This document shows, in pieces, positions 1 to 21,160 of a DNA stretch of 64,000 nt. A program made the translations under genes and the position numbers. Source of the DNA: Streptomyces sp. BA2 (GTDB lineage: Bacteria; Actinomycetota; Actinomycetes; Streptomycetales; Streptomycetaceae); NCBI RefSeq assembly GCF_009769735.1, contig NZ_WSRO01000002.1, positions 4,910,001-4,974,000 of the forward strand, read 5' to 3'. The notes beneath the pieces were generated by a model. The model worked only from the letters and a program-made list of their open reading frames with translations, was not told the origin of the DNA and ran no database searches. Position 1 is the first letter of the stretch. The number at the start of each line of letters is the position of its first letter.

Positions 1-1656
1 GTTGGCCACGAAGGCGCCGTCGCACAGGGCGGCGTTCGCGGCAGGGTTGCCGCCCGAGCCGTGGAAGTCCGAGAAAGCCGCCGTCTGGTTCACATAGACG
101 CCGCCCGTGAGGTTCAAGGAGAGCTGGGCGCACTCCTCCAGGCAGGTCTCCTCCACGGCGCCGGACACCTCGTCCGACGTCGTGTACGCGCCGACCGTCA
201 TCGCGCCCTTGTCGCGCACCGTGCGGCGCAGCAACTCCACGGCGTCCGACGCCGAGTCGACCGCGACGGCGAAGGAGACGGGGCCGAAACACTCGTCCAG
301 ATAGACCGCCTCGGCGTCCGGCTTCGCGCCGTCCAGCTTGACGATGACCGGGGTGCGGACCACGGCGTCCGGGAACTCCGGGTTACTGATCTCCCGTGAG
401 GGGAGTGCCACTTCGCCGAGTCCGGCCGCCGCCTCCAGGCGGGCCTTCACGCCAGGGTTGACCAGGGCGCCGAGGATGCCGTTCGCGCGGGCGTCGTCGC
501 CGAGCAGGCCGTTCACCGACGCGGCGAGGTCGGACACCACGTCGTCGTACGACTTCGCTCCGGCGTCCGTCGCGATGCCGTCACGGGGGATCAGGAGGTT
601 CTGCGGGGTCGTGCACATCTGGCCGCTGTAGAGCGACAGGGAGAAGGCCAGGTTGGCCAGCATCCCCTTGTAGTTGTCCGTCGAGTCGACGACGACCGTG
701 TTCACGCCGGCCTTCTCCGTGTAGACCTGCGCCTGGCGGGCGTTGGCCTCCAGCCAGTCGCCGAAGGCGGTCGATCCGGTGTAGTCGATGATCTTGATCT
801 CGGGGCGGACGGCGAGAGTCTTGGCGATGCCTTCGTCCGGTCGCTCGGCGGCCAGGCACACCAGGTTCGGGTCGAAGCCCGCGTCGGTGAGGGCCTCGCG
901 CGCGATGCGCACGGTCAGCGCGAGCGGGAGCACCGCGCGCGGGTGGGGCTTGACCAGGACGGGGTTGCCGGTGGCCAGGGAGGCGAACAGTCCCGGGTAG
1001 CCGTTCCACGTCGGGAAGGTGTTGCAGCCGATCAGGAGCGAGATGCCGCGCGCCACAGGCGTGAAACGCTTGTTCAGGCCGATCGGGTCGCGCTTGCCCT
1101 GGGGCTTGGACCACTCCGCGTTGTCAGGGGTGCGGGCCTGCTCGACGTACGCATACGCCACCGCTTCGAGGCCGCGGTCCTGGGCGTGCGGTCCGCCCGC
1201 CTGGAAGGCCATCATGAAGGCCTGGCCGCTGGTGTGCATGACGGCGTGCGCCATCTCGTGCGTGCGCGCGCTGATGCGCGACAGGATCTCCAGACAGACC
1301 ATCGCGCGCACTTCCGCGCCCGCGTCGCGCCAGGCGCGCATCCCGGCGCGCATCGCCGGCAGCAGCGTGTCGATGTCCGGGTGGGGGTACGTGATGCCCA
1401 ACTCAGGCCCGTACGGAGAGACTTCCGCGCCTGTCCAGTCGTCCGTGCCCGGCTGGTCGAGGGCGAAGCGACTGCCCAGGAGGGCGTCGAAGGCGGCTTT
1501 GCCGTCGGACAGGCTCAGGCTGCCGTTCTCTCCATAGGCCTTGGGGTGCTCGGGGTGCGGCGACCAGTACGCGCGCGTGCGGATCGTCTCCAGCGCCTGG
1601 TCGAGTGTGGGCCGGTGCGTGGCGATCAGCTGGTGCGCGGTGAGTTCGGCGGCCAT
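1..1656 (-). CDS. paaN: Phenylacetic acid degradation protein PaaN (3' end cut off)
   Basis: Aldehyde-dehydrogenase-fold protein of the PaaN type, expected to oxidise the ring-opened semialdehyde in the phenylacetyl-CoA pathway in the cytoplasm. The reading frame is open from an ATG at 1656 to base 1, giving 552 visible codons; the stop lies outside the window. The translation shows an N-terminal half typical of the PaaN_2 branch, a nucleotide-binding half, and a GQMCTTPQ segment with the presumed catalytic Cys near residue 348. A GAGGAG sits about 10 bases before the start. It is divergent from a PaaH-like gene across a promoter carrying a TetR palindrome. The family assignment is firm; the exact substrate is inferred from context. 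Confidence 0.9.
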   Translation of the reverse strand, partial: MAAELTAHQLIATHRPTLDQALETIRTRAYWSPHPEHPKAYGENGSLSLSDGKAAFDALLGSRFALDQPGTDDWTGAEVSPYGPELGITYPHPDIDTLLPAMRAGMRAWRDAGAEVRAMVCLEILSRISARTHEMAHAVMHTSGQAFMMAFQAGGPHAQDRGLEAVAYAYVEQARTPDNAEWSKPQGKRDPIGLNKRFTPVARGISLLIGCNTFPTWNGYPGLFASLATGNPVLVKPHPRAVLPLALTVRIAREALTDAGFDPNLVCLAAERPDEGIAKTLAVRPEIKIIDYTGSTAFGDWLEANARQAQVYTEKAGVNTVVVDSTDNYKGMLANLAFSLSLYSGQMCTTPQNLLIPRDGIATDAGAKSYDDVVSDLAASVNGLLGDDARANGILGALVNPGVKARLEAAAGLGEVALPSREISNPEFPDAVVRTPVIVKLDGAKPDAEAVYLDECFGPVSFAVAVDSASDAVELLRRTVRDKGAMTVGAYTTSDEVSGAVEETCLEECAQLSLNLTGGVYVNQTAAFSDFHGSGGNPAANAALCDGAFVAN

Positions 1657-1699: not shown

Positions 1700-1746
1700 G
1701 AGCTGGGCAGGGCAGTGGGCAGGAACGGACGGACAGAGCTAGAGTA

Positions 1747-1760
1747 ACCGAACGATCGGT
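1747..1760. promoter_or_regulatory. TetR/PaaR-type operator in the paaN-paaH divergent promoter
   Basis: ACCGAACGATCGGT is a near-palindrome fitting the ACCG-NN-CG-NN-CGGT core that I recall for PaaR of corynebacteria. It lies between the divergent paaN and paaH starts, and the TetR gene two genes away is the obvious ligand. An almost identical site stands upstream of the E1/E2 operon at 4607-4620. Confidence 0.75.
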
Positions 1761-1784
1761 CGGGACAAGGGGGTCCGCCGAACC

Positions 1785-1793
1785 TGTGGACAA
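1785..1793 (-). promoter_or_regulatory. DnaA-box-like 9-mer
   Basis: The top strand reads TGTGGACAA, so the bottom strand is TTGTCCACA, the Streptomyces DnaA-box consensus. It lies about 35 bases from the TetR operator in the paaN-paaH gap. It may be a chance match or a real DnaA site. Confidence 0.4.
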
Positions 1794-1852
1794 CTTCTCG
1801 CCAGGCACCCCCGCACCCTCCGGCGGACACCTCGTGCGGGAGGATCGCGAGC

Positions 1853-3367
1853 ATGACAGCACTCGAGCTCAGCAGCCCCGTTGCCGTGGTCGGCACCGGC
1901 ACCATGGGGCAGGGCATCGCCCAGGTCGCCCTGCTGGCGGGCCACCCCGTGCGGCTGTATGACGCCGTGGAGGGGCAGGCGAAGACCGCGGCCGCCGCGA
2001 TCGCCGCACGCCTTGACCGGCTCGTCGAGAAGGGCAGGCTCGCGGCCGCCGACCGGACCGCCGCGGGGGACCGGCTCACACCGGTCGCCGGCCTCGCCGA
2101 TCTTGCCGGGTGCGGACTCGTCATCGAGGCGATCCTGGAGAAGCTCTCCGTGAAGCAGCGCCTCTTCGAAGAGCTGGAAGAGGTGGTCGGCGAAGACTGC
2201 CTCCTCGCCACGAACACGTCGTCCCTCTCCGTCACCGCCATCGCAGGCACGCTCAAGAAGCCCGGCCGCTTCGTCGGCCTGCACTTCTTCAATCCCGCGC
2301 CGCTCCTCCCCCTCGTCGAGGTCGTCAGCGGCTTCGCGACCGACGAAACGGCCGCCACGCGCGCGTACGAGACGGCGCGGACCTGGGGCAAGACGCCCGT
2401 GCGCAGCGCGGACACCCCCGGCTTCATCGTCAACCGGATCGCCCGCCCCTTCTACGCCGAGGCGCTGCGCGTCCACGAGGAGCGGGCCGCCGACCCGGCC
2501 ACCATCGACGCCGTCCTGCGCGAGTCCGGCGGCTTCAAGATGGGGCCCTTCGAGCTCACCGATCTCATCGGCCAGGACGTGAACGAGGCCGTCACCCGCT
2601 CCGTGTGGGAGTCCTTCTTCCAGGACCCCAAGTTCACCCCGTCACTCGCCCAGCGCCGCCTCGTCGAATCACGCCGCCTCGGCCGCAAGGCCGGGCAGGG
2701 CTGGTACGCGTACGGGGACGACGCCCCGCGCGCGGAGCCGCACACGGCGCAGCCCGCACCGGCCCCGGCGTCCGTCGCGGTGCACGGAGAGCTGTTCCAG
2801 GCGCGGTCCCTTGCCGGGCTGATCAGCGGGGCCGGGATCGACGTCGCGTACAAGGAGCCTCTCGACCCCGACTTCCCCGGCTGGATCGAACTGCCCAGCG
2901 GAGTAAGGCTCTTCCTTGCCGACGGGTCCGCCGCGGACGACGCCGAGGCGCCGGTGATCCACTTCGACCTCGCGCTGGACTACAAGTCCGCGACCAGGAT
3001 CGCCCTGGCGCCCGCAGCGACCGTGGGCGAGGCGCAGGTCCGCGAGGCCGTGGGCCTCTTCCAGGCGCTGGGCAAGCAGGTCAGCGTCGTCGCCGATGTA
3101 CCGGGGATGATCGTGGCCCGTACCGTCGCCATGCTCGTCGACTTCGCGCAGGACGCCGTCGCGCGCGGTGTCGCCGACAAGGAGGACGTCGACACGGCCA
3201 TGCGCCTCGGCGTCAACTACCCGCGCGGCCCCCTCGCGTGGGGCGAGGAGATCGGCGCGGGATGGGTCCTCGAAACCCTGGAGCGCCTGCACCTGGAGTA
3301 CCCCACAGGCCGCTACGCGCCGTCCCAGGCACTGCGCCGCGCGGCAGCGCGAGAGGACCGCTCATGA
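1853..3367 (+). CDS. paaH: 3-hydroxyacyl-CoA dehydrogenase, PaaH/PaaC-like
   Basis: A 504-residue NAD-dependent 3-hydroxyacyl-CoA dehydrogenase, most likely oxidising 3-hydroxyadipyl-CoA in phenylacetate breakdown. The Rossmann motif GTGTMGQG is at residues 14-21. An NTSSLSVTAIA segment and a GLHFFNPAPLLPLVEVV segment mark the N-terminal domain. Two C-terminal 3HCDH domains follow, the second ending in RGPLAWGEEIG, separated by an Ala/Pro-rich linker. GGGAGGA stands about 9 bases before the ATG. Its stop overlaps the start of the TetR gene (ATGA), so the two are co-transcribed. A short-chain 3-hydroxybutyryl-CoA role is the alternative. Confidence 0.9.
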   Translation: MTALELSSPVAVVGTGTMGQGIAQVALLAGHPVRLYDAVEGQAKTAAAAIAARLDRLVEKGRLAAADRTAAGDRLTPVAGLADLAGCGLVIEAILEKLSVKQRLFEELEEVVGEDCLLATNTSSLSVTAIAGTLKKPGRFVGLHFFNPAPLLPLVEVVSGFATDETAATRAYETARTWGKTPVRSADTPGFIVNRIARPFYAEALRVHEERAADPATIDAVLRESGGFKMGPFELTDLIGQDVNEAVTRSVWESFFQDPKFTPSLAQRRLVESRRLGRKAGQGWYAYGDDAPRAEPHTAQPAPAPASVAVHGELFQARSLAGLISGAGIDVAYKEPLDPDFPGWIELPSGVRLFLADGSAADDAEAPVIHFDLALDYKSATRIALAPAATVGEAQVREAVGLFQALGKQVSVVADVPGMIVARTVAMLVDFAQDAVARGVADKEDVDTAMRLGVNYPRGPLAWGEEIGAGWVLETLERLHLEYPTGRYAPSQALRRAAAREDRS

Positions 3368-3957
3368 CCACCACCAGGCGCGACACGTACACCCCCGAGA
3401 CCCTCCTGACGGTGGCGGTCCGGATCTTCAACGAGCGCGGTTACGACGGCACGTCCATGGAGCACCTCTCCAAGGCGGCCGGTATCTCCAAGTCCTCGAT
3501 CTACCACCACGTCTCCGGCAAGGAGGAGTTGCTGCGCCGCGCGGTGAGCCGCGCGCTCGACGGGCTCTTCGGGATCCTTGCCGAGGAGCACGCGCGCGTG
3601 GGCACCGCCGTGCAGCGCCTGGAGCACGTCACGCGCCGCACCGTCGAGGTGCTCGTCGCGGAACTGCCCTATGTGACGCTGCTGCTGCGCGTGCGCGGCA
3701 ACACGGACACCGAGCGGTGGGCCATGGAGCGGCGCAGGGAGTTCGACCAGCAGGTCGCCGATCTGCTCAAGGAGGCCGTCGCCGACGGCGATCTGCGCTC
3801 GGACGTCGAGCTGCGCCTCGCCACCCGCCTGCTCTTCGGGATGATCAACTCCATCGTGGAGTGGTACCGCCCGGACGCCCGAGGTGCCTCGTCGGGGGAG
3901 CAGGTCGCCGACGCCGTCGTGCAGTTGGCCTTCGCGGGACTGCGCAGCGGCAGCTGA
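3364..3957 (+). CDS. TetR-family regulator, PaaR-like
   Basis: A 197-residue TetR repressor. The helix-turn-helix lies at about residues 20-60 (FNERGYDGTSMEHLSKAAGI then SKSSIYHHVSGKEELL), followed by a ligand-binding domain of normal length. The ATG overlaps the stop of the upstream dehydrogenase by four bases, so it is translated with it. PaaR-type regulators of this pathway are released by phenylacetyl-CoA; that ligand is inferred here from context. Two matching palindromes, at 1747-1760 and 4607-4620, flank this gene and are its likely operators. This would make it autoregulated and a common regulator of paa and ketoacid dehydrogenase genes. Confidence 0.88.
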   Translation: MTTTRRDTYTPETLLTVAVRIFNERGYDGTSMEHLSKAAGISKSSIYHHVSGKEELLRRAVSRALDGLFGILAEEHARVGTAVQRLEHVTRRTVEVLVAELPYVTLLLRVRGNTDTERWAMERRREFDQQVADLLKEAVADGDLRSDVELRLATRLLFGMINSIVEWYRPDARGASSGEQVADAVVQLAFAGLRSGS

Positions 3958-3980
3958 CGGATCAGCTCTCCGGCTCCGGA

Positions 3981-4505
3981 TCAGCTCTCCGGGTCCAGGT
4001 CGTCCTCCTCGAAGACCAGCAACGTACGCGTGCTGAGCACTTCGGGGATGGACTGCAGCCGGGTGAGGACCAGCTCGCGCAGCGCGCGGTTGTCCGGCGT
4101 GTGCACCAGGAGCAGTACGTCGAAGTCGCCGCTGACCAGCGCGATGTGAGAGGCGCCAGGCAGCGTGCGCAGATGCTCGCGGACCGTGCGCCAGGTGTTC
4201 TGGACGATCTTGAGCGTGATGTATGCCGACGCGCCCTGGCCCGCCCGCTCGTGGTTGATCCGGGCTCCGAATCCGCGGATCACGCCGTCGTCGATGAGCC
4301 GGTTGATGCGCGCGTACGCGTTGGCCCGTGACACATGGACGCGCTCGGCCACGGACCGTATCGACGCGCGACCGTCCGTGTGCAGTATGTGCAGGATGTC
4401 GCGGTCGATCGGGTCCAGCGGACGGGGCAGGCCCTCCTGGCGGTCGCCGGACCGGCTTTCGAGACGATCACCGTCGCGCCCGTCGGCCATTCGTTCAGAT
4501 GCCAT
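3981..4505 (-). CDS. bkdR: Lrp/AsnC-family regulator, BkdR-like
   Basis: A 174-residue Lrp/AsnC regulator. After a charged N-terminal tail the AsnC-type helix-turn-helix begins at LDPIDRDILHILHTDGRASI and continues to the RINRLIDDGVIRGF segment. A C-terminal RAM ligand domain follows (HIALVSGDFDVLLLVHTPD). The ATG at 4505 is chosen because GGGAGG lies just upstream. The gene is divergent from the E1-E2 operon, the arrangement known for bkdR of Streptomyces, where Lrp regulators control branched-chain ketoacid dehydrogenase genes in response to amino acids. A 12-bp-arm inverted repeat (4545-4578) lies 40 bases upstream of its start. Confidence 0.88.
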   Translation of the reverse strand: MASERMADGRDGDRLESRSGDRQEGLPRPLDPIDRDILHILHTDGRASIRSVAERVHVSRANAYARINRLIDDGVIRGFGARINHERAGQGASAYITLKIVQNTWRTVREHLRTLPGASHIALVSGDFDVLLLVHTPDNRALRELVLTRLQSIPEVLSTRTLLVFEEDDLDPES

Positions 4506-4544
4506 GTCCCCCCGCCTCCCTACCATGGACGTACTGCATCCATC

Positions 4545-4578
4545 CCAGGCTGTGGAGAACCGTTTGTCCACAGCCTGG
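4545..4578. promoter_or_regulatory. 34-bp inverted repeat between bkdR and the E1/E2 operon
   Basis: The arms CCAGGCTGTGGA (4545-4556) and TCCACAGCCTGG (4567-4578) are perfect over 12 bp with a 10-base spacer. The right part contains TTGTCCACA (4564-4572), the Streptomyces DnaA-box consensus; the left part holds an 8-of-9 copy. Candidate Lrp operator, DnaA site, or both. Confidence 0.55.
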
Positions 4579-4606
4579 AGGTGCCTGTAGCCAAAATGTG
4601 CCGACG

Positions 4607-4620
4607 ACCGAACAATCGGT
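4607..4620. promoter_or_regulatory. Second TetR/PaaR-type operator, upstream of the E1/E2 operon
   Basis: ACCGAACAATCGGT differs from the box at 1747-1760 at one base. It lies 76 bases upstream of the E1 alpha start and on the far side of the Lrp gene. The pairing predicts that the PaaR-like TetR at 3364-3957 represses this operon too. Confidence 0.7.
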
Positions 4621-4695: not shown

Positions 4696-5868
4696 ATGAC
4701 GGTCATGGAGCAGCGGGGCGTCTACCGGTCCACCCCGCCACCCGCATGGCAGCTCAGGACCGACCCCGCGCCGCTGCTGCCCGATGCGGAGCCCTACCGC
4801 GTCCTGGGCACCGAGGCCGCCGGGAAGGCCGACGAGGAGCTCCTGGGCCGTCTGTACGCCCAGCTGGTGCGAGGACGGCGGTACAACACGCAGGCGACGG
4901 CCCTGACGAAGCAGGGCAGGCTCGCCGTCTACCCCTCAAGCACAGGCCAGGAGGCCTGCGAGGTGGCTGCCGCGCTCGTCCTGGAGGAGCGGGACTGGCT
5001 CTTCCCCAGCTATCGCGACACGCTCGCCGCGGTCGTCCGCGGCCTCGACCCCGTCCACGCGCTGACCCTGCTGCGCGGCGACTGGCACACCGGGTACGAC
5101 CCGCGCGAGCACCGCATAGCGCCCCTGTGCACCCCTCTCGCGACCCAGCTCCCGCACGCCGTGGGGCTCGCGCACGCCGCACGCCTGAAGGGCGACGACG
5201 TGGTCGCGCTCGCCATGGTCGGCGACGGCGGCACCAGCGAGGGCGACTTCCACGAGGCGCTGAACTTCGCGGCCGTCTGGCAGGCGCCCGTCGTCTTCCT
5301 GGTGCAGAACAACGGCTTCGCGATCTCCGTGCCGCTCGACAAGCAGACGGCCGCCCCCTCCCTGGCCCACAAGGCCGTCGGGTACGGAATGCCGGGCCGT
5401 CTGGTGGACGGCAACGACGCGGCGGCGGTGCACGAGGTGCTGAGCGAAGCGGTCTCCCGCGCCCGCTCGGGCGGCGGCCCCACGCTCGTCGAAGCGGTGA
5501 CCTATCGCATGGACGCCCACACGAACGCGGATGACGCCACGCGCTACCGCGGGGACGCCGAGGTCGAGGCCTGGCGCGCGCACGACCCGATCCTGCTCCT
5601 GGAGCGGGAGTTGACCGAGCGCGGCCTGCTCGACGAGGACCGGATGCGGGCGGCCCGGGACGACGCCGAGGCCATGGCGGCCGACCTGCGCGAACGCATG
5701 AATCAAGACCCCGAGCTCGACCCCATGGACCTCTTCAGCCATGTGTACGCCGAGCAGACCACCCAACTGCGCGAGCAGGCGGCCCAGTTGCGGGCCGAGC
5801 TGGAGGCATCGGACGAAGACGGCGCGGACGGCGCCGAGAGCGCGCACGGCGAGGAGAACGCGCGATGA
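4696..5868 (+). CDS. bkdA: 2-oxoacid dehydrogenase E1 component, alpha subunit (cluster 1)
   Basis: A 390-residue thiamine-diphosphate-dependent E1 alpha subunit that decarboxylates branched-chain 2-oxoacids or a related acid. The TPP/Mg motif starts at GDGGTSEGD, about residue 176, and ends in VFLVQNN about 30 residues on. The start has GGAGG seven bases upstream. The C-terminus is rich in acidic and Gln residues. It is translationally coupled to the beta subunit by ATGA. This copy is clearly diverged from the one at 19973-21160, so substrate range may differ; pyruvate cannot be excluded from sequence alone. Confidence 0.92.
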   Translation: MTVMEQRGVYRSTPPPAWQLRTDPAPLLPDAEPYRVLGTEAAGKADEELLGRLYAQLVRGRRYNTQATALTKQGRLAVYPSSTGQEACEVAAALVLEERDWLFPSYRDTLAAVVRGLDPVHALTLLRGDWHTGYDPREHRIAPLCTPLATQLPHAVGLAHAARLKGDDVVALAMVGDGGTSEGDFHEALNFAAVWQAPVVFLVQNNGFAISVPLDKQTAAPSLAHKAVGYGMPGRLVDGNDAAAVHEVLSEAVSRARSGGGPTLVEAVTYRMDAHTNADDATRYRGDAEVEAWRAHDPILLLERELTERGLLDEDRMRAARDDAEAMAADLRERMNQDPELDPMDLFSHVYAEQTTQLREQAAQLRAELEASDEDGADGAESAHGEENAR

Positions 5869-6893
5869 GTACGATCGCGGCCGAACGGGCCACCAAGAAG
5901 GCAGCCAAACCGGCCACCATGGCGCAGGCGCTCGGGCGCGCGCTGCGTGACTCCCTGGCCGAGGACCCGTCCGTGCACGTCCTCGGAGAGGACGTCGGAG
6001 CGCTCGGCGGGGTCTTCCGTGTCACCGACGGGCTCACCAAGGAGTTCGGCGAGGACCGCTGTACGGACACACCGCTCGCCGAGGCGGGCATCCTGGGCAC
6101 GGCCGTCGGCATGGCGATGTACGGACTTCGGCCCGTCGTCGAGATGCAGTTCGACGCGTTCGCCTACCCCGCCTTCGAGCAGCTCATCTCCCACGTGGCG
6201 CGGATGCGGAACCGCACGCGGGGCGCGAGGCCGCTGCCCATCACGGTGCGCGTGCCCTACGGCGGCGGCATCGGCGGTGTCGAGCACCACAGCGACTCCT
6301 CCGAGGCGTACTACATGGCGACTCCGGGGCTTCATGTCGTCACGCCCGCCACGGTCGCCGACGCCTATGGCCTGCTGCGGGCCTCCATCGCCTCCGACGA
6401 CCCGGTCGTCTTCCTCGAGCCCAAGCGCCTCTACTGGTCCAAGGCCGACTGGAACCCGGAAGCGCCGCAGACCGTTGAACCCATAGGCAAAGCAGTGGTG
6501 CGGCGCACCGGCCGCAGCGCCACGCTCCTCACGTACGGGCCGTCCGTGCCCGTCTGCCTGGAGGCGGCCGAGGCCGCGGTCGCCGAGGGGTGGGACCTCG
6601 AAGTGGTCGACCTGCGCTCCCTCGTGCCCTTCGACGACGAGACGGTGGCCGCCTCCGTGCGGCGGACCGGGCGCGCGGTCGTCGTGCACGAGTCGGGCGG
6701 GTTCGGCGGACCCGGCGGGGAGATCGCCGCTCGCGTCACCGAGCGGTGTTTCCACCACCTGGAGGCGCCCGTCCTGCGCGTCGCCGGGTTCGACATTCCC
6801 TATCCGCCGCCGATGCTCGAGCGGCATCATCTGCCGGGCGTGGACCGGATCCTGGACGCGGTCGCGCGGTTGCAATGGGAGGCGGACAGCTGA
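5865..6893 (+). CDS. bkdB: 2-oxoacid dehydrogenase E1 component, beta subunit (cluster 1)
   Basis: A 342-residue transketolase-like beta subunit that pairs with the upstream alpha subunit. Conserved segments include LGEDVGALGGVFRVTDGL near residues 43-60, the TPLAEAGILGTAVGMAMYG stretch, and VPYGGGIGGVEHHSDS. The C-terminal transketolase domain has the EAPVLRVAGFDIPYPPP signature of BCKDH/PDH beta chains. The ATG overlaps the alpha-subunit stop (ATGA) and its own stop overlaps the E2 start, giving tight coupling and balanced stoichiometry. Confidence 0.93.
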   Translation: MSTIAAERATKKAAKPATMAQALGRALRDSLAEDPSVHVLGEDVGALGGVFRVTDGLTKEFGEDRCTDTPLAEAGILGTAVGMAMYGLRPVVEMQFDAFAYPAFEQLISHVARMRNRTRGARPLPITVRVPYGGGIGGVEHHSDSSEAYYMATPGLHVVTPATVADAYGLLRASIASDDPVVFLEPKRLYWSKADWNPEAPQTVEPIGKAVVRRTGRSATLLTYGPSVPVCLEAAEAAVAEGWDLEVVDLRSLVPFDDETVAASVRRTGRAVVVHESGGFGGPGGEIAARVTERCFHHLEAPVLRVAGFDIPYPPPMLERHHLPGVDRILDAVARLQWEADS

Positions 6894-8383
6894 TGGCGCC
6901 CGGTCTGAATGTGAACAGCCTTGAGTTCAAGCTGCCCGATCTCGGTGAGGGGCTCACGGAGGCGGAGATCACCCGCTGGCTCGTGCAGGTCGGCGATGTC
7001 GTCGCAGTCGACCAGCCCGTCGTCGAGGTGGAGACGGCCAAGGCGATGGTGGAGGTGCCCTGCCCGTACGGAGGCGTGGTGACGGCCCGCTTCGGTGAGG
7101 AGGGGGCGGAACTGCCGGTGGGCGCGCCGCTGTTGACGGTCGCCGTCGGCGCCCCGGCCGGGGACGCGGGCGCGGCTCCGGCTGCCGCTCCTGCCCAGGC
7201 GCCGGAAGAGCCCGCGGAGCGAGCCCTGCAGGCGGCTGCCGCCGAGGATTCCTCCGGCAACGTCCTGGTCGGGTACGGCACGGCCGCGGCTCCCGCGCGG
7301 CGCAGGAGGGTGCGATCGGGGGTCACCACGAATTCCGTCACGAAGGCCGCCCCGCGTTCCGTCACGACGACCGCGCCGAAGCCTGCCGCGCCGTCCGTGG
7401 CCGCGGGGCCGGACAGCCTTCCGCCGGGCACTCTTCCGCCGGGCACCCTTCCGCGCCCGGACGGTCCGATACCGGTGATCTCACCTCTCGTACGCAAGCT
7501 GGCCCGTGAGAACGGCGTGGAGCTGCGGGAGTTGACGGGCACCGGCCCGGACGGGCTGATCATGCGGGCCGATGTCGAGACCGCCATAGCGGCGGAGCGG
7601 ACCGCCGCGCAGACGGCCTCGGGCACGCCCACGCCGGTGGCAGCGGCGGACGAGGAGACCCGCGTCGCGCCGGCGGGTGCGGAGACCCGCTATCCGCTGA
7701 CCGGCATCCGGGGCCTCGTCGCGGACAAGATGTCCCGCAGCAGGCGGGAGATACCGGAAGCCACTTGCTGGGTCGACGCAGACGCGACCGAACTGCTCGC
7801 AGCCCGCGCCGCGATGAATGCCGCCGTGAAGGAGGGCGGCGGGCAGAAGAAGGTCTCGCTGCTCGCGCTGTTCGCCCGCATCAGTGTGGCCGCGCTGGCC
7901 CGCTACCCGATGCTCAACTCCACCGTGGACATGGAGGCACGCGAGGTGGTCCGGCTCGCCGACGTCCACCTCGGCTTCGCCGCGCAGACGGACCGAGGTC
8001 TGGTCGTCCCCGTGGTCCGGAACGCGAACACGCGCACCACCGAATCGATCAGCACCGAGCTGATCCGGCTCACGGAGTCGGCGCGGGACGGGAAGCTGAC
8101 CCCGGGGGAACTCACGGGCGGCACGTTCACGTTGAACAACTACGGGGTGTTCGGGGTCGACGGCTCCACGCCGATCATCAACCACCCCGAGGCGGCCATG
8201 CTCGGCGTGGGCCGGATCGTGCCCAAGCCATGGGTGCACCAAGGGGAGTTGGCGGTGCGGCACGTCGTGCAGCTCTCGCTCACCTTCGACCACCGGGTGT
8301 GCGACGGAGGCACGGCGGGCGGGTTCCTGCGGTTCGTGGCGGACTGCGTGGAGCAGCCGGCGGTGCTGCTGCGGGCGGTGTGA
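6893..8383 (+). CDS. bkdC: Dihydrolipoamide acyltransferase E2 (cluster 1)
   Basis: A 496-residue E2 core protein. One N-terminal lipoyl domain carries the lipoylated Lys at about residue 50 (VETAKAMVEV). An Ala/Pro linker follows, then a peripheral E3-binding domain (SPLVRKLARENGVEL) near residue 200. The catalytic acyltransferase domain has the active-site DHRVCDGG with His near 467. The start is the ATG overlapping the E1 beta stop (TGATG), with GGGAGG ten bases upstream. No lipoamide dehydrogenase gene follows, so E3 must be supplied in trans. The linker contains a short repeat encoding LPPGT. Confidence 0.93.
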   Translation: MAPGLNVNSLEFKLPDLGEGLTEAEITRWLVQVGDVVAVDQPVVEVETAKAMVEVPCPYGGVVTARFGEEGAELPVGAPLLTVAVGAPAGDAGAAPAAAPAQAPEEPAERALQAAAAEDSSGNVLVGYGTAAAPARRRRVRSGVTTNSVTKAAPRSVTTTAPKPAAPSVAAGPDSLPPGTLPPGTLPRPDGPIPVISPLVRKLARENGVELRELTGTGPDGLIMRADVETAIAAERTAAQTASGTPTPVAAADEETRVAPAGAETRYPLTGIRGLVADKMSRSRREIPEATCWVDADATELLAARAAMNAAVKEGGGQKKVSLLALFARISVAALARYPMLNSTVDMEAREVVRLADVHLGFAAQTDRGLVVPVVRNANTRTTESISTELIRLTESARDGKLTPGELTGGTFTLNNYGVFGVDGSTPIINHPEAAMLGVGRIVPKPWVHQGELAVRHVVQLSLTFDHRVCDGGTAGGFLRFVADCVEQPAVLLRAV

Positions 8384-19972: not shown

Positions 19973-21160
19973 GTGACCGTGGAGAGCACCGCCGCGCGCA
20001 CACCGCGCCGCAGCAGTACCAGCGGCGGGAAGCGCGCAAGCGCCAAGAAGGCCGCGCCGAAGAAAAGCACGGAACCCCAGCTTGTCCAGCTGCTGACCCC
20101 CGAGGGCAAGCGGGTCAAGCACGCAGAGAACGCCGTGTACGACTCGTACGTCGCGGACATCACCGCCGACGACCTGCGCGCCCTGTACCGCGACATGGTC
20201 CTCACCCGCCGCTTCGACGCCGAGGCCACCTCCCTGCAGCGCCAGGGCGAGCTGGGCCTGTGGGCCTCGCTGCTCGGCCAGGAGGCCGCCCAGATCGGCT
20301 CGGGCCGTGCCACGCGCGAGGACGACTACGTCTTCCCGACCTACCGCGAGCACGGCGTCGCCTGGTGCCGCGGGGTCGACCCGACCAATCTGCTCGGCAT
20401 GTTCCGCGGTGTGAACCACGGTGGCTGGGACCCGAACACCAACAACTTCCACCTGTACACGATCGTCATCGGCTCGCAGACCCTGCACGCCACCGGCTAC
20501 GCGATGGGCGTGGCCAAGGACGGCGCGGACTCGGCCGTGATCGCGTACTTCGGTGACGGTGCCTCAAGCCAGGGCGACGTCGCCGAGGCCTTCACCTTCT
20601 CCGCGGTCTACAACGCTCCCGTCGTGTTCTTCTGCCAGAACAACCAGTGGGCGATCTCCGAGCCCACCGAGAAGCAGACCCGCGTGCCGCTCTACCAGCG
20701 CGCGCAGGGATACGGCTTCCCCGGTGTGCGGGTCGACGGCAACGACGTGCTCGCCGTGCTCGCCGTCACCAAGTGGGCCCTGGAGCGGGCGCGTACGGGC
20801 GAGGGCCCGGCGCTCATCGAGGCGTTCACCTACCGCATGGGCGCGCACACCACGTCCGACGACCCGACCAAGTACCGCAACGACGACGAGCGCGAGGCCT
20901 GGGAGGCCAAGGACCCGATCCTGCGCCTGCGGACCTATCTCGAGTCCGAAGGTCACGCGGATGAGGGATTTTTCGCGGAACTCGACGCGGAGAGCGAAGC
21001 GTTGGGAAAGCGAGTGCGAGAGGTGGTGCGGGCGATGCCGGATCCGGATCTGATGGCGATCTTCGAGAACGCGTATGCGGACGGGCATGCGCTGGTCGAC
21101 GAGGAGCGCGCGCAGTTCGAGGCGTACCAGGCGTCCTTCGCTGAAGAAGGCGGTAAGTGA
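19973..21160 (+). CDS. bkdA: Branched-chain 2-oxoacid dehydrogenase E1 alpha (cluster 2)
   Basis: A 395-residue E1 alpha subunit. A basic, Ala/Lys/Ser-rich N-terminal tail of about 40 residues precedes the TPP enzyme domain; the TPP motif begins with GDGASSQGD at about residue 194 and ends CQNN. The segment FRGVNHGGWDPNTNNFHLYT is typical of the actinobacterial branched-chain type. The GTG at 19973 follows GGAGGAG. It supplies isobutyryl-, 2-methylbutyryl- and isovaleryl-CoA starters for branched fatty acids and polyketides in Streptomyces; that role is inferred from the family. Confidence 0.93.
   Translation: MTVESTAARTPRRSSTSGGKRASAKKAAPKKSTEPQLVQLLTPEGKRVKHAENAVYDSYVADITADDLRALYRDMVLTRRFDAEATSLQRQGELGLWASLLGQEAAQIGSGRATREDDYVFPTYREHGVAWCRGVDPTNLLGMFRGVNHGGWDPNTNNFHLYTIVIGSQTLHATGYAMGVAKDGADSAVIAYFGDGASSQGDVAEAFTFSAVYNAPVVFFCQNNQWAISEPTEKQTRVPLYQRAQGYGFPGVRVDGNDVLAVLAVTKWALERARTGEGPALIEAFTYRMGAHTTSDDPTKYRNDDEREAWEAKDPILRLRTYLESEGHADEGFFAELDAESEALGKRVREVVRAMPDPDLMAIFENAYADGHALVDEERAQFEAYQASFAEEGGK

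Follow-up and report, generated by a model that had tools for sequence, protein, structure and literature searches.

A conserved operator suggests that PaaR joins a 2-oxoacid dehydrogenase operon to the phenylacetate genes in Streptomyces

The window studied here is a stretch of 64,000 nucleotides of Streptomyces sp. BA2 (NZ_WSRO01000002.1, positions 4,910,001 to 4,974,000; genome of 10,043,478 bases, 10.04 Mb). It carries a TetR-type regulator gene (tetR) between phenylacetate catabolism (paa) genes and an operon coding for the E1alpha, E1beta and E2 subunits of a 2-oxoacid dehydrogenase complex (E1-E2). From its operators and their conservation, we conclude that this regulator, very probably the Streptomyces PaaR, is very likely to control the E1-E2 operon (bkdA2B2C2) as well as paa genes. 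The first-pass annotation had proposed such a single regulon from two operators differing by one base, located in the divergent promoters on either side of tetR, and had suggested an aromatic or related substrate such as phenylpyruvate for the complex. Both sites were confirmed by sequence:

1747..1760, + strand, predicted PaaR operator 1, ACCGAACGATCGGT, in the paaN/paaH promoter (sequence, genome scan, conservation)
4607..4620, + strand, predicted PaaR operator 2, ACCGAACAATCGGT, in the bkdR/E1alpha promoter (sequence, genome scan, conservation)

The regulon is now well supported by near-invariant sites throughout the genus, two more paa operators, similar promoter geometry and co-expression in S. 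rimosus. The aromatic substrate draws its support from the neighbourhood of related E1-E2 sets in other actinobacteria, which belong to other branches of the E1alpha tree.

The genome scan proposed earlier was run and found three exact copies of ACCGAACRATCGGT, compared to 0.07 expected from base composition. All three lie within 7.7 kb (C2:4906901-4914620) and correspond to site 1, site 2 and a copy located 32 bases before paaA, 3.1 kb to the left of the window. Chance likeness was rejected on the basis of this clustering together with conservation. Five sites in the genome carry one mismatch. One of them, ACCGAATGATCGGT, lies 28 bases before paaK, 3.6 Mb away, the identity of which is given by a score of 714 bits with the PaaK model (cut-off 646). 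The remaining four were rejected as further targets since no fitting gene was found behind them among the called frames. Weak matches in the window were also rejected: with up to three mismatches, 11 were found for 10.91 expected, and the case therefore rests on exact matches. The second E1alpha gene of the window (20063-21151) showed no match with fewer than six mismatches in about 600 bases upstream.

To follow these sites through the genus, in which tetR is present in 119 of 121 genomes, we fetched 93 stretches: 89 loci of the usual type, one each from 89 of the 119 tetR-bearing genomes, and 4 second copies. The other 30 genomes were omitted, most of them being on short contigs. G001, which is 79% complete, was also omitted. 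Conservation of the gaps was measured by best-match scans without motif requirement; operator means of 1.0 in the set of sites picked by exact match are so by construction, which leaves the motif-free scans unaffected. In the bkdR-E1alpha gap beside tetR, ACCGAACAATCGGT was found without mismatch and always in the A form in 87/87 loci (87 of the 89 of the usual type). In G089 (L067), E1alpha is about 14 kb from tetR and still preceded by an exact site 2, and in G010 (L139) the gap is an unsequenced stretch. The best match in the paaN/paaH gap was ACCGAACGATCGGT with 0 mismatches in all 68 stretches having both genes, the other 21 being unscored there. The same form in that orientation occurs in 87/89 stretches, usually just before tetR where paaH is missing. 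The motif also precedes paaA in 67/67 stretches containing this gene. Finally, paaK was found in 56/61 genomes; of the 30 loci scanned, 27 have ACCGAATGATCGGT upstream and 3 have a closely related form. Every promoter thus retains an operator form of its own.

Some individual genomes deserve mention. In L106 (G058), one TGA codon interrupts the paaR match while the three operators are intact, which could reflect a sequencing error or a recent loss. G037 was considered as a case of joint loss of repressor and site and then dropped: its E1alpha proved to be a related gene located within a paa cluster, and this genome lacks the usual locus. Among relocated paaA genes of Streptomyces (22 genomes), an exact site was present in 3, and most carried ACCGAACGAATGGTCGGT or a form with two mismatches. 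The relocated paaA of a second type (about 75% identical; L239, L240, L242-L246, L248, L250-L253) is preceded by ACCGAACGAATGGTCGGT, whose 18 bases may hold two overlapping operators.

Among 246 genomes drawn evenly from the class, clustered sites were observed in 24/24 Streptomyces and any exact match in 17/222 others. In genus g50 of this draw, one exact ACCGAACAATCGGT was found in three of four genomes (G196, G214 and G305, not G296; L214:2208, L227:4641, L234:5507), about 7 and 10 kb from a PaaR-like gene in two of these three. In G261, ACCGAATGATCGGT lies just past the 3' end of E2 (L195:12306), in a cluster composed of paaK, a PaaR-like TetR gene, E2-E1beta-E1alpha and an Lrp gene.

The closest solved structure to the regulator is 2IAI, which is SCO3833 of S. 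coelicolor (314.5 bits). It resembles known PaaR proteins in its TetR fold and family, in being encoded among paa genes and in the common ACCGA-N4-TCGGT operator found in paa promoters. Among the 18 NCBIfam models listed for it, none is named PaaR and none reached its cut-off. Judged from sequence, it is very probably the Streptomyces PaaR of SCO3833 type. PaaR of S. pristinaespiralis (SSDG_03033) is a repressor of paa genes (PMC10933834, PMC7089894). It is likewise of TetR type, and its putative site AACGA-N4-TCGGT is close to the present sites (PMC10933834). However, its targets named in the text consulted are paa genes only, without E1-E2, and the likeness is by description, not by sequence. 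The operator ACCGACCGGTCGGT in a paa promoter of Burkholderia cenocepacia has half-sites identical to those of the present motif (PMC2770484). PaaR of Thermus thermophilus and Burkholderia, also TetR-type, is released from DNA by phenylacetyl-coenzyme A (phenylacetyl-CoA) (PMC9493321). In contrast to the system proposed here, the targets given for them in the portions consulted are paa promoters, without a 2-oxoacid dehydrogenase (PMC2770484, PMC9493321). Our literature search, the reach of which did not extend to the original S. pristinaespiralis PaaR paper, found E1-E2 nowhere reported as a target of PaaR; no priority is claimed.

From left to right, the locus is composed of paaN (-), site 1, a paaH-like gene (+), tetR (+), an Lrp/AsnC gene (-), site 2 and E1alpha-E1beta-E2 (+), with paaABCDE about 3 kb outside the window on the paaN side:

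1..1656, - strand, paaN (oxepin-CoA/aldehyde dehydrogenase step of the phenylacetate pathway); NCBIfam TIGR02288 PaaN_2, 946 bits, cut-off 579
1853..3367, + strand, paaH-like 3-hydroxyacyl-CoA dehydrogenase, first gene of the paaH-paaR unit; Pfam 3HCDH_N and 3HCDH
3364..3957, + strand, TetR regulator, SCO3833 orthologue-type, predicted PaaR; Pfam TetR_N and TetR_C_24, 2IAI match
3981..4505, - strand, Lrp/AsnC regulator, bkdR by gene order; Pfam AsnC_trans_reg and HTH_24
4696..5868, + strand, E1alpha of a 2-oxoacid dehydrogenase, bkdA2 by gene order; Pfam E1_dh, NCBIfam TIGR03181 PDH_E1_alph_x above cut-off
5865..6893, + strand, E1beta (bkdB2); Pfam Transket_pyr and Transketolase_C
6893..8383, + strand, E2 acyltransferase (bkdC2); Pfam 2-oxoacid_dh, Biotin_lipoyl and E3_binding

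The 3' end of paaN, located in the fetched stretch L019, lies about 35 bases past the window start. The paaH gene stands between site 1 and tetR, and its stop is overlapped by the tetR start; its product scores 611 bits with the NCBIfam PaaH model, below the cut-off of 669, and is above cut-off with the general model NF006124. The domain set of a 2-oxoacid dehydrogenase complex (E1alpha, E1beta, E2) is complete by Pfam. In S. coelicolor, SCO3832 is named bkdR and the adjoining SCO3831 is bkdA2 (PMC12323332). Since the best solved match of the TetR protein is SCO3833, the Lrp gene would be, by gene order, bkdR (SCO3832) and the E1-E2 genes bkdA2B2C2 (SCO3831-3829). The published Streptomyces BkdR-bkd cluster thus comprises the same bkdR and E1-E2 genes (PMC12323332), whereas the regulator described for it is the Lrp-type BkdR, with PaaR control unmentioned in the sections available (PMC8176718, PMC12323332).

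We also examined the position of the operators relative to candidate promoter elements, all hexamers being inferred from sequence:

1740..1746, no strand assigned, TAGAGTA, possible -10 of paaH (+, TAGAGT) and of paaN (-, TACTCT); TAGAGTA present in at least 73/87 loci
1763..1768, - strand, TTGTCC, possible -35 of paaN
4564..4569, + strand, TTGTCC, possible -35 of E1alpha, part of TTGTCCACA (4564-4572); same offset to the operator in 86/87 loci
4588..4593, + strand, TAGCCA, possible -10 of E1alpha; 86/87 loci

Site 1 would occupy the 16-base spacer between TTGTCC and TACTCT of the putative paaN promoter. The B. cenocepacia operator ACCGACCGGTCGGT, tested by mutation, also sits between -10 and -35 (PMC2770484). 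In the putative E1alpha promoter, TTGTCC and TAGCCA are spaced by 18 bases and the operator follows 13 bases after the -10, an arrangement kept in 86/87 loci. Before paaA, a TTGACA hexamer starts 41-43 bases before the operator in 55/70 loci and 32-33 bases before it in 15. The operator is therefore at a similar distance from -35-like hexamers for E1alpha and paaA.

Two other elements were observed in these regions. Each of the three clustered operators has a DnaA-box-like 9-mer, TTRTCCACA, within 60 bases (1785-1793, 4564-4572 and G000:C2:4906960-4906968), in partial overlap with the putative -35, and the genome contains 65 such 9-mers in all; TTGTCCACA is listed for S. coelicolor as a DnaA box-like 9-mer (PMC4285127). 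Such a 9-mer was found within 80 bases of the site at 87/87 E1alpha, 56/70 paaA and 45/87 paaN/paaH promoters, compared to 137/4450 random places, and within 330 bases at 1/22 relocated paaA and 2/30 paaK promoters. In addition, the bkdR/E1alpha gap contains a 12-base perfect inverted repeat, CCAGGCTGTGGA/TCCACAGCCTGG, with arms 10 bases apart (4545-4578), a candidate BkdR site or RNA hairpin.

Published transcriptome values agree with joint regulation of E1-E2 and paa genes. In S. rimosus HP126 compared to the wild type, E1alpha (+5.0), E2 (+4.7), E1beta (+4.6), paaE (+4.1), paaD (+3.5), paaC (+3.3) and a phenylacetate-CoA ligase with a distant tag (+3.1) make up the top seven rows of the table of CoA-ester genes, in which valine dehydrogenase is at -1.7 (PMC10612213 Table 2). 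Locus tags run from 19935 (paaE) to 19995 (E1alpha), which in steps of five equals the 12 gene steps observed here, and we infer that this is the same locus. The authors read the E1-E2 and paa sets as separate pathways (PMC10612213).

Several observations weigh against PaaR control of E1-E2. In HP126, 2497 genes were changed (PMC10612213), so that the table agrees with a regulon and is no proof of it. In the column for HP126 delta-v3, a derivative of HP126, the same rows from E1alpha to the ligase read -2.9, -2.7, -2.7, -1.4, -1.0, 0 and -1.3 (PMC10612213): E1-E2 is at -2.9 to -2.7 but paaC is at 0, and the two sets are out of step there. Moreover, ACCGA-N4-TCGGT was absent within 500 bases before E1alpha in 24/24 non-Streptomyces genomes, 18 of which have a PaaR-like TetR, and the PaaR/E1-E2 link is therefore a Streptomyces trait as far as seen. 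Operator binding and the effector role of phenylacetyl-CoA are themselves deduced by analogy.

If PaaR control holds, PaaR would probably bind ACCGA-N4-TCGGT in at least four promoter regions, those of paaABCDE, of paaN and paaH-paaR, of paaK and of E1alpha-E1beta-E2. As expected from characterised PaaR proteins, from which the signal role of phenylacetyl-CoA would follow, it would block these promoters until phenylacetyl-CoA accumulates. E1-E2 would most likely take phenylpyruvate among its substrates and convert it to phenylacetyl-CoA; if so, the product of the complex would induce the operon that encodes it. In this circuit, phenylalanine would enter the phenylacetate pathway by a feed-forward route for which PaaK would not be needed. 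A comparable reaction was suggested for PglB/PglC of the pristinamycin pathway, a pyruvate dehydrogenase (PDH)-like E1 pair converting phenylpyruvate to phenylacetyl-CoA (PMC7089894). This pair differs in being biosynthetic and under PapR2, and its likeness to the present E1 is by description, not by sequence.

The substrate was approached through the neighbourhood of related E1-E2 sets, which makes an aromatic substrate plausible. Among 80 named loci in the matches listed for an E1alpha located inside a paa cluster (L288), paaA or paaN lies no more than about 10 kb away in 28, a rate inflated by the choice of a query that is itself paa-linked; the count is 32 with paaK, paaE or a PaaR-like TetR alone included, and the usual Streptomyces locus accounts for 5 of the paa-linked loci. 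In L294, L295, L296 and L300, E1alpha is followed by E1beta, E2, paaN and paaA on a single strand. In L288, whose contig has the same length as that of L294, paaN is separated from paaA by frames for a thiolase, an enoyl-CoA hydratase and paaH (labelled by eye except paaH). In S. zhaozhouensis (L324; L287), E1alpha, E1beta, E2, paaA and paaE are on one strand. Of the 44 non-Streptomyces genomes of the even draw that have both E1alpha and paaA, 5 carry the two genes within 30 kb of each other (G122, G143, G279, G313, G337; by eye), compared to 0/74 for the second-type E1alpha (p = 0.006). Mapping the paa label on the E1alpha tree takes 14 changes, compared to 34.7 in shuffles. We lean slightly towards phenylpyruvate as a real substrate of the complex. 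As a separate observation, some Streptomyces and an Embleya (L288, L294, L295, L296, L300, L324) carry an extra E1-E2 set on the same strand as paaN and paaA, or as paaA and paaE, beside the usual locus or replacing it.

Alternatively, PaaR may control the operon of an ordinary branched-chain 2-oxoacid dehydrogenase, adding an aromatic signal to that of BkdR, with phenylpyruvate as a side substrate at most. We consider this a real possibility, a little short of even. Published work describes SCO3831 as branched-chain (PMC12323332, PMC7324645), many actinobacteria have an Lrp-type gene next to E1alpha with no paa gene nearby, and part of the class has E1alpha without PaaR. The same direction is indicated by 52 of the 80 named loci among the matches listed, where both paaA and paaN are lacking within about 10 kb. 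The tree speaks against the aromatic substrate, as the Streptomyces E1alpha clade holds no other paa-linked row: the paa-linked sets are relatives in other branches, and most of the family is not near paa genes. A curated model names E1alpha a pyruvate dehydrogenase. The nearest solved E1alpha structures are Bacillus PDH and Thermus 2-oxoacid dehydrogenase, and the best solved match of E1beta is Thermus 2-oxoacid dehydrogenase 1um9. When S. albus was fed valine, 'BCDH II' became its main complex (PMC8176718), which favours branched-chain use if BCDH II is this cluster. Against an ordinary branched-chain role stand the single-strand runs of related sets into paaN and paaA (Streptomyces, Embleya) or paaA-paaE (S. 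zhaozhouensis), and the S. rimosus values, where E1-E2 and paa genes go up together and valine dehydrogenase goes down.

Two further explanations concern site 2 itself. It could mainly serve the divergent bkdR, E1-E2 being affected only via BkdR as a result of repression of bkdR by PaaR. Conservation of the bkdR-to-site block agrees with this, the site being 115 bases from the bkdR start in 45/87 loci while its distance to E1alpha varies from 47 to 241. However, this spread may be leader length, and the promoter-like hexamers in the E1alpha direction stay at a fixed distance from the operator in 86/87 loci, as at paaA, which makes the bkdR explanation improbable. Even less probable, to a degree that we hardly expect it, is that site 2 is the target of another protein (BkdR, MtrA or another TetR), its resemblance to the paa sites being incidental. 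The gap is indeed a busy regulatory region, with an MtrA site listed there in S. coelicolor (PMC12323332) and the conserved DnaA-box-like 9-mer, but a single base distinguishes site 2 from the operators of paaA and paaN/paaH, and the genome has no further exact copy.

Taken together, these results suggest that PaaR controls E1-E2 along with the paa genes. Its broadest extension is tentative, and we hold it with some doubt: one of the two Streptomyces 'branched-chain' clusters would be mainly a phenylpyruvate dehydrogenase, inducible through PaaR by its own product phenylacetyl-CoA and opening a direct route from phenylalanine to phenylacetyl-CoA that bypasses PaaK and free phenylacetate, and such a division of labour would be the reason why the genus keeps two. 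If true, one of the two bkd clusters would have a part in the catabolism of aromatic compounds, either in place of branched-chain catabolism or in addition to it, and why the genus keeps both could be tested directly. Several acyl-CoA precursors of antibiotics would then depend together on PaaR for their supply, and a single regulatory event could account for the simultaneous increase of bkd and paa genes in the oxytetracycline overproducer, which its authors interpreted as two pathways.

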